From NCBI GenBank assembly GCA_014239265.1, contig JAAZZH010000009.1:1-44131 (forward strand): DNA of 44,131 nt. Reading direction: 5' to 3'. The DNA comes from Actinomycetota bacterium. Its GTDB lineage: Bacteria > Actinomycetota > Acidimicrobiia > Actinomarinales > Actinomarinaceae. Every line of letters begins with the position of its first letter. The first letter of the stretch is position 1. The notes under the pieces are model-generated. The model did no database searches and was not told where the DNA came from. It saw only the letters and a program-made list of their open reading frames with translations. Shown in pieces: positions 8,187 through 25,740 of this stretch. The translations under genes and the position numbers were made by a program.

Positions 8187-8263
8187 CGCGGGGTGGAGCA
8201 GTCTGGTAGCTCGCTGGGCTCATAACCCAGAGGTCGTAGGTTCAAATCCTACCCCCGCTACCA
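8187..8263 (+). tRNA. tRNA-fMet (CAT), CCA encoded
   Basis: Cloverleaf with unpaired 1-72 (C/T), three G-C pairs in the anticodon stem (TGGGCTCATAACCCA), T-loop ggttcaaatcc, genomic CCA. Confidence 0.96.
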
Positions 8264-19778: not shown

Positions 19779-20350
19779 TGAACATACTTCTTGCAACTAA
19801 AAATATCAACAAGCATAGAGAAATTTCTAGAATATTAAAAGATACTGGTAACTTCCATCAAGCTATCTACAAAGAAGATTTAATAGATGTTGTAGAGGAT
19901 AAAAATACAATTTTAGAAAATGCTCAAAAAAAAGCACATGAGATTTATGATCACTATCAGGTTCCTGTAATTTCTGATGATTCTGGTTTATTTGTAAATT
20001 CACTCGATGGAATGCCTGGCCTTCATTCAAAAAGGTATGCAGGAGAAAATGCAACGGATCTTCAAAATATTGACAAGCTGTTGGCAAACCTCATCGAAGA
20101 AAAGGATCGAAGTGCATACTTTCAAACAGTCTTATATTTCTATGATGGTAAAACTGAAATTTCTACAGACGGAATCCTTGAAGGTCTAATTGCTAAAAAG
20201 CCTAGAGGTTCAAATGGATTTGGATATGATTCTATATTTGAGAATAAGGGTAAAACCCTTGCTGAATTATCTTCAGAGGAGAAAAATACTATTAGTCACC
20301 GCAAGATTGCTACAAATAAAATGATTGGAATTCTAAATGAAAAAATCTAA
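19778..20350 (+). CDS. rdgB: RdgB/HAM1 XTP/dITP pyrophosphatase
   Basis: LLATKNINKHREI, VISDDSGLFVNSLDGMPGLHSKRYAG, GFGYDSIF, SHRKIA. Confidence 0.94.
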   Translation: MNILLATKNINKHREISRILKDTGNFHQAIYKEDLIDVVEDKNTILENAQKKAHEIYDHYQVPVISDDSGLFVNSLDGMPGLHSKRYAGENATDLQNIDKLLANLIEEKDRSAYFQTVLYFYDGKTEISTDGILEGLIAKKPRGSNGFGYDSIFENKGKTLAELSSEEKNTISHRKIATNKMIGILNEKI

Positions 20351-21020
20351 GAATATTCTCATAGTTTTTTTATTTTTATTCTTCTCAGCATGTGAAGCAA
20401 CTTGGACAATGGAAATAGAACTTAATGATGATAATTCTGGAGATTACAGAATAGCCATTCTTCTTGACCAAGAAGCACAGCTATATGCAGTAGAGACAGG
20501 CCAAACTTCTATTGGTGGTTTAAATGCCATACTTACAGCTATGCCAGATGGTTTTGGCTCAACTATTTATGAAGATAATGATAAATTGGGTATCTTAATC
20601 AGAAATAATTTTCAAAATATTGAAGAGTTCGAGAAACAATTAGAAATTCTACGAGAAAATGAAAATACTGAACTGTTACTACTCCCGTTATCTAATATTT
20701 CAATATCGTCTGATGGGAATAAAAGAAGTATCTCAGGTTCTTTTGCAAAAATACTCAATGGTGCGGATGAAGAGATAGAAGGAATAGAAAATATTTATTC
20801 TGGTAGCTTAAGTATTCAGCTTCCAGGAAGAGTAACAGAACCAAACATTGAAAATATTGTAGATAATAAAATAATATTTCAACATTCAGGTTTACTTGAG
20901 CAAACCTTCCTCATGTCCTCAAATACACAAGAGTTGACACAAGTTTATATTGTGGGTTTATTATTTTCCCTCTTACTACTTGGCTATATAATTGCTAGAC
21001 AACGGAACAGAAATAAGTAA
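20337..21020 (+). CDS. LppM-like (DUF3153-type) lipoprotein with C-terminal TM
   Basis: Lipobox FFSAC, domain beginning ATWTMEIELNDDNSGDYRIAILLDQEA, C-terminal hydrophobic helix plus RQRNRNK. Confidence 0.65.
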   Translation: MKKSKNILIVFLFLFFSACEATWTMEIELNDDNSGDYRIAILLDQEAQLYAVETGQTSIGGLNAILTAMPDGFGSTIYEDNDKLGILIRNNFQNIEEFEKQLEILRENENTELLLLPLSNISISSDGNKRSISGSFAKILNGADEEIEGIENIYSGSLSIQLPGRVTEPNIENIVDNKIIFQHSGLLEQTFLMSSNTQELTQVYIVGLLFSLLLLGYIIARQRNRNK

Positions 21021-21023
21021 TAT
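20996..21023 (+). promoter_or_regulatory. Candidate promoter of the cimA leader: -35 TAGACA (20996-21001), 16-nt spacer, -10 TAATAT (21018-21023)
   Basis: TAGACA is 5/6 to TTGACA; TAATAT sits 6 nt before ATG 21030. Confidence 0.6.
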
Positions 21024-21029
21024 TGATAC

Positions 21030-21056
21030 ATGATGAATATCATAATTATTAATTAA
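21030..21056 (+). CDS. Candidate attenuation leader peptide MMNIIIIN (four consecutive Ile codons)
   Basis: ATG ATG AAT ATC ATA ATT ATT AAT TAA immediately upstream of a terminator hairpin and cimA. Confidence 0.72.
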   Translation: MMNIIIIN

Positions 21057-21084
21057 GGACAACGAACGCATCGTTGTTACCCTT
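21055..21084 (+). promoter_or_regulatory. Candidate antiterminator: AAGGACAACGA / TCGTTGT(tac)CCTT
   Basis: Perfect 7-bp stem ACAACGA/TCGTTGT (21059-21065/21071-21077), extendable by AAGG (21055-21058)/CCTT (21081-21084), overlapping the terminator's 5' arm. Confidence 0.55.
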
Positions 21085-21105
21085 GCATGGCAGGGGTTTT
21101 TTTTT
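21079..21105 (+). terminator. Intrinsic terminator/attenuator immediately upstream of cimA
   Basis: ACCCTTGC-atg-GCAGGGGT 8-bp stem (one G-T pair) followed by an uninterrupted T tract (T9 from 21097), ending 4 nt before ATG 21110. Confidence 0.82.
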
Positions 21106-21109
21106 AGAT

Positions 21110-22666
21110 ATGAAAATAGATATATTTGACACAACTTTGAGAGATGGCTTTCAGCAAGAAGGGATTTCACCTTCTGTGAAGGACAAGCTTGCTATTGCAG
21201 AGTTACTTGATGAACTAGGTGTTGCCTTTATAGAGGGTGGCTGGCCAGGTGCTTCACCCAAAGAAGAAGAATTTTTCGATAGGGCTAAAACTGAACTTAA
21301 ACTTAAAAATGCAAAACTAGTAAGTTTTGGATCAACAAGAAAACTAAATTTAAAAGTTGATGAGGATCCACAAGTCCAGGCTCTCATTGACTCTGGAACA
21401 GAATATGTTTGTATTGTAGGAAAATCATCAAATTTACATATTACAAAAGCAATTCAAACTGATGTTAAAAGTGCAATTGAAATGGCTGTGGACACAATTG
21501 AACATCTTAGTTCCAAAGGCAAAAAAGTTTTTTTTGATGCTGAGCATTTTTTTGATGGATATAAAGAAGACTCCAAAACAAGTCTTGAAATAATGGATGC
21601 AGTTATGGCTACTGGTGTAGATTGCTTCATCTTCTGTGACACAAATGGAGGAACGTTACCATCCGAAGTCACTGCAATATTAACCGAAATATTGCCAAGG
21701 TATGAAGGCCAAAAGTTTGGTGTACATTTTCAAAATGATAATGGATGTGCAGTTACAAATTCCATGGCAGCGGTTAATTTGGGAGTGAACCATGTTCAAG
21801 GGACCATGAATGGCTATGGAGAGAGAACTGGAAATGCCGATCTTTGTACTCTTGTACCAAATTTATCTTTAAAAATGGGTCATGAAACAATAAATTTAGA
21901 ATCTTTAAAAAAGCTAACACCTATAGCAAATCACATTGCAGAACTAGTCAATGTTACCATCGATTCTAGACAGCCATATGTTGGTTCAGCTGCTTTCACT
22001 CACAAAGCTGGATTGCATGCTTCTGGTATGGCTAAAGACAGTTCACTATATGAACACATTGACTCTTCTGCTGTAGGGAATTATACACGAACTACGGTCT
22101 CGGAACTAGCTGGTAGGGCAAGTGTAATTACTAAAGCAAATGAGTTTGGTTTAGAGTTTTCAAATGATGATGCAAAAGAATTAATTAATCATGTACAGAA
22201 TTTAGAACATGCTGGATATCAATTTGAAGCTGCAGATGCATCTTTATATTTACTTATAAAAAAAGAAAAAAATGTAGTTCCAGAGTTTTTTAGTTTTGAG
22301 AGTTTTCGTGTATTTTCAGAAAGGCGCAATTCGGAAAATGTTATCTCAGAAGCTGTAACAAAATTAATTGTCAATGAGAATAGATACGTTACAACTGGTG
22401 AGGGGGTCGGCCCTGTAGACGCTCTAAGTAAGGCCCTTGTAGCAGCATTAGAGGCTGATTACCCAAATGTTACAACCATCAAATTAGTTGATTACAAAGT
22501 AAGAATTATTGATTCTTCTGATGGTACCGAAGCAAAAACAAGGGTCTTAATTGAATTTACAGATACAACTAAAAACTGGAGCACTATAGGTGTCCATGAA
22601 AATATTATCAATGCCTCATGGAATGCGCTTTGTGATGGATTTAATTATTATTTTATGACAAGCTAA
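21110..22666 (+). CDS. cimA: (R)-citramalate synthase, CimA family
   Basis: IDIFDTTLRDGFQQEGISPSVKDKL, FDAEHFFDGYKED, CDTNGGTLPSEV; start moved from TTG 21074 to ATG 21110, after the terminator. Confidence 0.92.
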   Translation: MKIDIFDTTLRDGFQQEGISPSVKDKLAIAELLDELGVAFIEGGWPGASPKEEEFFDRAKTELKLKNAKLVSFGSTRKLNLKVDEDPQVQALIDSGTEYVCIVGKSSNLHITKAIQTDVKSAIEMAVDTIEHLSSKGKKVFFDAEHFFDGYKEDSKTSLEIMDAVMATGVDCFIFCDTNGGTLPSEVTAILTEILPRYEGQKFGVHFQNDNGCAVTNSMAAVNLGVNHVQGTMNGYGERTGNADLCTLVPNLSLKMGHETINLESLKKLTPIANHIAELVNVTIDSRQPYVGSAAFTHKAGLHASGMAKDSSLYEHIDSSAVGNYTRTTVSELAGRASVITKANEFGLEFSNDDAKELINHVQNLEHAGYQFEAADASLYLLIKKEKNVVPEFFSFESFRVFSERRNSENVISEAVTKLIVNENRYVTTGEGVGPVDALSKALVAALEADYPNVTTIKLVDYKVRIIDSSDGTEAKTRVLIEFTDTTKNWSTIGVHENIINASWNALCDGFNYYFMTS

Positions 22667-25142: not shown

Positions 25143-25160
25143 TTCAACTAAAAAATCTGT

Positions 25161-25242
25161 GCGGATGAGAGGACTCGAACCTCCACGAGCAAAGCTCACT
25201 GGATCCTAAATCCAGCGCGTCTACCAGTTCCGCCACATCCGC
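25161..25242 (-). tRNA. tRNA-Leu (TAG)
   Basis: Reverse strand cloverleaf, gcggatg/catccgc acceptor, anticodon loop TTTAGGA, type II variable arm; CCA not encoded. Confidence 0.95.
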
Positions 25243-25254
25243 TAAAATGTCGCG

Positions 25255-25327
25255 TGGGTCGCCGGGGACTTGAACCCCGAACCTGCGGATTAAGAGTCCG
25301 ATGCTCTGCCAGTTGAGCTAGCGACCC
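25255..25327 (-). tRNA. tRNA-Lys (CTT)
   Basis: Reverse strand cloverleaf, gggtcgc/gcgaccc acceptor, anticodon loop CTCTTAA; CCA not encoded. Confidence 0.95.
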
Positions 25328-25422
25328 TTTTATACAGATTAACCGAAGTAAGATTACTTAACTATTATTTTTTAATTAATTGTTTCCATAAAACCAGTAT
25401 CATGGAACAATAATTAGACGTA

Positions 25423-25497
25423 CGGGCTGTGGCTCAGCTTGGCTAGAGCGCCTGCTTTGGGAGCAGGAGGTCGTGAGTTCGAATCTCACCAGCCCGA
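25423..25497 (+). tRNA. tRNA-Pro (TGG)
   Basis: cgggctg acceptor, anticodon stem-loop cctgctttgggagcagg; CCA not encoded. Confidence 0.94.
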
Positions 25498-25511
25498 CGA
25501 ATCGCATTATT

Positions 25512-25582
25512 GCGGGTGTAGCTTAATGGCAAAGCTCCAGCCTTCCAAGCTGGCTATGAGGGTTCGATCCCCTTCACCCGCT
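25512..25582 (+). tRNA. tRNA-Gly (TCC)
   Basis: gcgggtg/cacccgc acceptor, anticodon loop CTTCCAA; CCA not encoded. Confidence 0.95.
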
Positions 25583-25586
25583 CGAG

Positions 25587-25660
25587 GCTCTCGTAGCTCA
25601 AATGGATAGAGCAACAGACTTCTAATCTGTAGGTTATAGGTTCGAGTCCTATCGAGAGCG
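25587..25660 (+). tRNA. tRNA-Arg (TCT)
   Basis: gctctcg/cgagagc acceptor, anticodon loop CTTCTAA; CCA not encoded. Confidence 0.95.
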
Positions 25661-25665
25661 CGCGT

Positions 25666-25740
25666 GGTGGTCGTAGCTCAGTTGGTTAGAGCACCTGGTT
25701 GTGGTCCAGGATGTCGCGGGTTCGAATCCCGTCGATCACC
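25666..25740 (+). tRNA. tRNA-His (GTG), with encoded G-1
   Basis: G-1 plus gtggtcg/cgatcac acceptor, anticodon loop TTGTGGT, C73. Confidence 0.94.

Follow-up and report, generated by a model that had tools for sequence, protein, structure and literature searches.

Leader-peptide attenuation has long been known. The E. coli leaders trpL, hisL, leuL, thrL and ilvL each carry a short open reading frame (ORF) in which the regulating codons stand in a row, an intrinsic terminator before the biosynthetic gene, and an RNA structure that depends on the position of the ribosome. The cimA element described here resembles them in all of these respects. In the E. coli leaders, however, the antiterminator captures the terminator's 5' arm by base pairing (values of 0.67-1.0 in the folding procedure described below), whereas the cimA element has no conserved overlap of this kind: its hairpin starts at the stop codon and stands beside the terminator, and its RNA in Actinomarina is only 76 nucleotides (nt) long and probably leaderless.

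Actinobacterial ilvB leaders are similar to the cimA element in that they combine branched-chain leader peptides with terminators (PMC1262725; PMC10272879; PMC8079986), but the gene in the published cases is ilvB and none of them includes a cimA element. Among these leaders are the branched-chain leader peptide IlvL of Streptomyces lividans (PMC8079986) and the Corynebacterium ilvB-II leader, in which the peptide spans P1 and the antiterminator is formed by the P1 loop with the 3' side of P2a (PMC10272879). C. glutamicum and S. lividans are reported to have leader peptides that are leaderless or lack a ribosome binding site (PMC10272879; PMC8079986). Seliverstov's actinobacterial survey of 2005 covers trp, cys, leu/ilvB and ileS T-boxes only and does not treat cimA (PMC1262725), and neither does the ilvB-II paper (PMC10272879). 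The T-box riboswitches of isoleucine genes also sense the charging of Ile-tRNA, but they bind the tRNA directly and without a leader peptide, which the cimA element possesses; the element had no Rfam T-box match with the T-box covariance model, and no match to the Rfam leader families above the gathering score. The first-pass annotation of this DNA, which was made from the sequence alone, knew of no described cimA attenuator of this form. Our searches of Rfam and of open-access papers likewise returned none: we found no description of a leader-peptide attenuator at cimA (citramalate synthase) and no paper on attenuation in Acidimicrobiia, which is weak evidence because the literature covered was open-access only.

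The window, by which we mean the whole 44,131-nt stretch of DNA that was analysed, comes from a Candidatus Actinomarina genome. The features of its cimA locus, all on the forward strand, are as follows.

20996-21001 (+): -35-like hexamer TAGACA, from a consensus scan, lying within the upstream gene at its 3' end
21018-21023 (+): -10-like hexamer TAATAT, from a consensus scan, sharing bases with the upstream gene's stop codon and 6 nt 5' of the leader ATG
21030-21056 (+): leader ORF MMNIIIIN*, read directly as ATG ATG AAT ATC ATA ATT ATT AAT TAA
21039-21050 (+): regulatory Ile codons of the leader ORF
21055-21084 (+): optional extension of H1, AAGG (21055-21058) with CCTT (21081-21084), the antiterminator of the first-pass annotation
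21058-21078 (+): hairpin H1, 8 bp, beginning 2 nt past the leader stop; predicted switch element
21059-21065 with 21072-21078 (+): H1 core, ACAACGA / TCGTTGT, read directly
21079-21097 (+): terminator hairpin T, 8 bp, ACCCTTGC (21079-21086) / GCAGGGGT (21090-21097)
21097-21105 (+): U tract T9, whose first T doubles as the last base of the T stem
21110-22666 (+): cimA, citramalate synthase (TIGR00977; PF00682 and PF08502)

The leader ORF, the stems, the AAGG/CCTT pairing, T, T9 and the spacing to the cimA ATG had all been placed at these positions by the first-pass annotation, and all are present there. T adjoins H1 with a spacer of 0 nt, and the cimA ATG at 21110 lies 4 nt past T9. The identity of cimA also holds, as its product scores 610 bits against TIGR00977 (cut-off 450). 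The name lppM, given to the upstream gene (20337-21020), is unsupported here because that gene has no Pfam or NCBIfam match; its product is lipoprotein-like, with FFSAC near the N-terminus and a C-terminal membrane stretch. The 76-nt RNA has a predicted folding energy of -21.9 kcal/mol (z -4.1), and none of 200 shuffles was equally stable. The surrounding 20 kb contains 13 terminator-like sites, of which T alone has a long pure T tract, and the pattern of this terminator occurs once in the window against 0.02 occurrences expected. Elsewhere in the window are a cluster of six tRNA genes (25160-25740; two on the minus strand and four on the plus strand) and another tRNA at 8187-8260.

We consider it very probable, judging from sequence comparison, that a ribosome-mediated attenuator makes cimA respond to charged isoleucyl-tRNA. 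The locus has consecutive codons for the amino acid that the pathway makes, a terminator between the leader ORF and the gene (by sequence), and an RNA structure that depends on the ribosome (by computation). According to the proposed mechanism, the mRNA would begin at, or a few bases 5' of, the leader ATG, from a promoter located where the preceding gene ends, and a ribosome would translate the 8-residue Ile-rich peptide. With ample Ile-tRNA, the ribosome would come to stand at the stop codon with its front edge covering the 5' arm of H1; with H1 blocked, T would fold and RNA polymerase would be released, leaving a transcript of about 76 nt. If Ile-tRNA were scarce, the ribosome would stall on the first Ile codons and H1 would close just ahead of it; abutting T, H1 would keep T incomplete and cimA would be transcribed. 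We infer both termination in vivo and the direction of the response: the formation of H1 marks starvation, which for a biosynthetic gene should mean readthrough.

The genus, family and order genome sets used for comparison consist of the same 42 genomes. In Actinomarina, the element precedes all 29 cimA genes with an intact 5' end; 28 complete orthologues were compared base by base, and the 29th (in G003, gene start only) was read directly. Counted from the leader ATG (its ATA counterpart in one case) through the last base of T9, all 28 compared leaders measure exactly 76 nt and have no indels, and each has the exact T9. They represent 23 distinct sequences, with 49 of 76 columns invariant. 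The leader is 9 codons long in 27 of the 28, with the remaining one beginning at the second codon. Peptides (MMNIIIIN, MINIIIIN, MMNIIIII, MNIIIII, MKKIIIII, MKKIIIIV, MINFIIII, MINFIIIT and MINFMIII) contain three to five consecutive Ile residues, while the residues outside the Ile run vary. The sole changed start among the 28 is in L008 (G016:C4), where the first leader ATG is replaced by ATA and the start would shift to the second codon.

Over the 23 distinct sequences, 99.5% of cells are paired in H1 (columns 29-36 with 42-49) and 98.9% in T. The alignment of related genomes proposed in the first-pass annotation thus recovered the conserved Ile-rich short ORF that it predicted, but the expected covariation is thin in Actinomarina because the stems hardly vary: in H1, only pair 36:42 has changed on both sides (AU/UA/UG), three pairs show AU/GU changes, and most pairs are invariant.

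A covariance model of the Actinomarina element has no match in 254 other Acidimicrobiia genomes. When the regions upstream of cimA outside Actinomarina were gathered by protein similarity, the same layout was found in different letters. An ATG-initiated ORF of 6-30 codons with III within the last six residues was present at 18 of 74 such loci, whereas the reverse strand and 50 dinucleotide shuffles had none and the 3,884 control windows had 8; four other loci (L044, L052, L057 and L080) have degenerate Ile runs and the same hairpins. The enlarged set comprises 88 distinct cimA leaders from eight families besides that of Actinomarina (f2, f7, f10, f15, f18, f20, f27 and f29), and these carry 80 different peptides. 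The Ile run occupies the fourth to second codons before the stop in 39 of the 88 and the fifth to second in 16. H1 is mostly 9-13 bp in this set and starts in or right after the stop codon (-3 to 0 relative to the stop end) in 87 of 88 leaders, at the last base of the stop codon in 54; the spacer between H1 and T is -1 to 5 nt in 78. Because the search that found these hairpins demands pairing, their compensatory diversity is in part a product of the method; a dinucleotide shuffle control, which addresses this bias, is beaten by H1 (p<=0.05) in 79 of 88. The first-pass proposal of an Ile-codon leader and intrinsic terminator controlling cimA can therefore be extended, as a prediction, from the window to the whole genus and eight further families with unrelated peptide and stem sequences.

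No such cimA leader was found in the other families examined, among them f5, f11, f21, f34 and f47; at several loci without the leader that were read, cimA sits close behind another gene. A CimA tree of 67 rows shows a single switch between the attenuated and non-attenuated labels, on a branch with 100/99 support, compared to a mean of 21.3 changes expected for shuffled labels. This distribution shows the predicted element to be inherited vertically in Acidimicrobiia.

The hexamers TAGACA and TAATAT, separated by 16 nt, match 9 of 12 consensus positions (a consensus match only). TAGACA is seen upstream of the leader in most Actinomarina relatives, and a TAATAT/TATTAT-like hexamer ends 6-7 nt 5' of the leader ATG across them. 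Because so little space separates the -10-like hexamer from the ATG, the Actinomarina leader peptide is probably translated from a leaderless mRNA, with the predicted promoter located at the end of the preceding gene. In 69 of the 88 class leaders, a TATAAT-like score puts a -10 6-11 nt 5' of the leader start; a TTGA-type -35 was counted in 64, and a Shine-Dalgarno-like sequence precedes the start in two. TAnnnT was rejected as a class promoter pattern, as only 12 of 88 leaders fit it.

A sister element of the same format, with a Leu/Val-rich peptide that is probably also leaderless, precedes Actinomarina ilvB (L151-L180; e.g. L156, G000:C66:18853-20523). An example has the peptide MKKLYVLITLLVLVLM followed by TAG, the G of which is the foot of the hairpin GCGCTCA...TGAGCGC; the terminator is CTCCC...GGGAG with T9 directly 3'. 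All 24 distinct Actinomarina ilvB leaders have an H1 that begins at the final base of the stop codon, and 13 further Acidimicrobiia ilvB leaders share the layout with spacers of 1-5 nt (GC-rich examples are L348-L372). When a 585-kb sister contig (G041:C1) was scanned in pieces, 23 terminators were found, five of them with an abutting hairpin and exactly two with both a short ORF ending at the hairpin and a gene within 120 nt: those of cimA and ilvB. Sequence comparison shows the predicted element to be restricted to cimA (Ile) and ilvB (Leu/Val). This sister element, the class-wide distribution and the putative leaderless promoter all go beyond the first-pass annotation. Conserved leaders in the genus and the class, together with the ilvB counterpart, give strong support to ribosome-mediated isoleucine attenuation.

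The dependence of the RNA structure on ribosome position was modelled by masking the mRNA as far as 12 nt downstream of the A-site codon's first base, folding the transcript up to the terminator loop, and measuring the upstream pairing of the T 5' arm. Five E. coli leaders (trp, his, leu, thr and ilv) were run as controls by the same procedure. In these controls, the arm is paired upstream at 0.67-1.0 on the sensor codons; once the ribosome passes these, the value drops in thr, leu, trp and ilv. With the ribosome at the first sensor codon, upstream pairing exceeds 0.5 in 6 of 23 genus leaders, all in the window's clade (L002-L005, L018 and L026), and is 0.02-0.47 in the other Actinomarina leaders; the class leaders have a mean of 0.18, with 1 of 88 above 0.5, and 0 of 37 ilvB leaders surpass this value. 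These results are nearly independent of mask length (9, 12 or 15 nt). The computed fraction of H1 pairs formed falls from a median of 0.98 when the A site holds the first Ile codon to 0.00 at the stop, and the IIIX-stop spacing is such that the front edge of a ribosome stalled at the first Ile reaches the foot of H1. On this modelling, H1 is predicted to be the consistent and conserved switch element.

How H1 would act on T is less certain. The equilibrium fold of the window sequence with H1 and T together has an energy of -20.3 kcal/mol, compared to -10.6 for extended H1; since the two hairpins can coexist at equilibrium, H1 must act by position or timing, and secondary structure alone does not explain how it would prevent termination. 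Steric abutment is our leading guess. The closing pairs of a terminator form within the RNA exit channel, and an immediately adjacent helix could collide with the polymerase; H1 would block T either through such a steric clash in the channel or by delaying its folding. Competition from AAGG/CCTT may add to this block in the clade of the window. It is a tentative but real possibility that a large part of Acidimicrobiia cimA and ilvB shares a separate attenuation format, in which a leaderless peptide is followed by a stop-codon-footed hairpin abutting T and antitermination occurs by abutment (steric or kinetic) with no sequence overlap.

The first-pass annotation instead read extended H1 (AAGG/CCTT) as a base-pairing antiterminator of the classical trp/his type that takes the T 5' arm. 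This fits the window and its close relatives, where upstream pairing is 0.65 with the ribosome at Ile 4-5 and falls to 0.08 at Ile 6 (and to 0.01 at Ile 7 in the window), comparable to the 0.67-0.74 of E. coli leu, trp and his; the low counts above 0.5 in the genus, class and ilvB sets weigh against it, and pairs 25-27 of the extension are the stop codon, which is conserved regardless. The reading is therefore plausible within the window's clade but not conserved beyond it. A conserved antiterminator taking the T 5' arm, as in a classical attenuator, was not found, although the window itself could form one locally. The textbook version thus describes some members of the family only, and as a general account we regard it as rather doubtful. 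About equally doubtful, yet a serious alternative to abutment, is a role for H1 as a pause hairpin that keeps RNA polymerase in step with the ribosome, with regulation by timing and with another structure or factor bringing about antitermination. H1 ends about 10-12 nt before the T loop, as is usual for pause hairpins, and a ribosome reaching the stop would open H1; no conserved second antiterminator was found in the genus, class or ilvB leaders, however, and the pause consensus (judged by eye only) is poorly kept in Actinomarina.

Two further explanations appear very improbable. T lies between co-oriented genes and might merely end the upstream transcription unit, with the cimA promoter downstream of it; yet the gap from T9 to cimA is just 4-12 nt in Actinomarina, the end of the upstream gene varies while the leader ORF, H1, T9 and the T spacing stay constant, and the layout recurs at cimA and ilvB of GC-rich relatives. 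The strong sequence conservation within the genus would also suit a 76-nt RNA acting in trans (as a small RNA or bioactive peptide), or H1-T acting as a protein- or ligand-binding switch. This is equally hard to credit given the lack of an Rfam match and the class-wide pattern, in which peptide and H1 sequence are free while codon identity and geometry are kept.

Several pairings were considered and rejected. For AAGG/CCTT as a general antiterminator, pair 29:52 is possible in 8 of 23 distinct leaders and the pairing is not conserved; this test used a register related to that of the first-pass annotation, the letters of which were read from the alignment, and conservation of the other extension pairs says little because they involve the stop codon. 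The Ile-codon region pairs with the U tract in folds of the MKKIIIII group but not in those of the other groups. Region 1 can pair with the terminator loop (GCAACG/CGTTGC) in some species only, because that loop varies. Complementarity between the H1 loop and the T 3' arm is inconsistent (GC-rich leaders were checked by eye).

TIGR01127, one threonine deaminase model, has no match in 41 Actinomarina genomes (eight of them at least 90% complete) and matches in 14 of 14 control genomes, suggesting that CimA is probably the sole entry to isoleucine in Actinomarina. Ribosome-mediated attenuation as proposed here would add cimA to the genes under leader-peptide attenuation, and would place such control in streamlined ocean bacteria of approximately 1 Mb that seemingly make isoleucine via citramalate only. 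If the abutting hairpin is a real antiterminator, a helix beside a terminator suffices to switch termination with no shared bases, and attenuator searches that require overlapping stems would miss such elements.

The covariance model finds one strong copy per Actinomarina genome, always 5' of cimA, with the exception of G026. In the copy in that genome (L142, G026:C2:15483-15558, minus strand), the Ile peptide, H1 and the T stem are intact, and unrelated sequence replaces the U tract and cimA after the T stem; no CimA was found in G026, which is 63% complete. Either gene loss or misassembly at the hairpin could account for this copy. The genus has further, weak matches (E 0.1-0.9) that appear to be due to chance. 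Two of the weak matches to the cimA model (L146 and L147, E about 0.4) lie 5' of a gene with a translation similar to ribosomal protein L10, in a stretch that has its own hairpin and T run and is possibly a separate leader.
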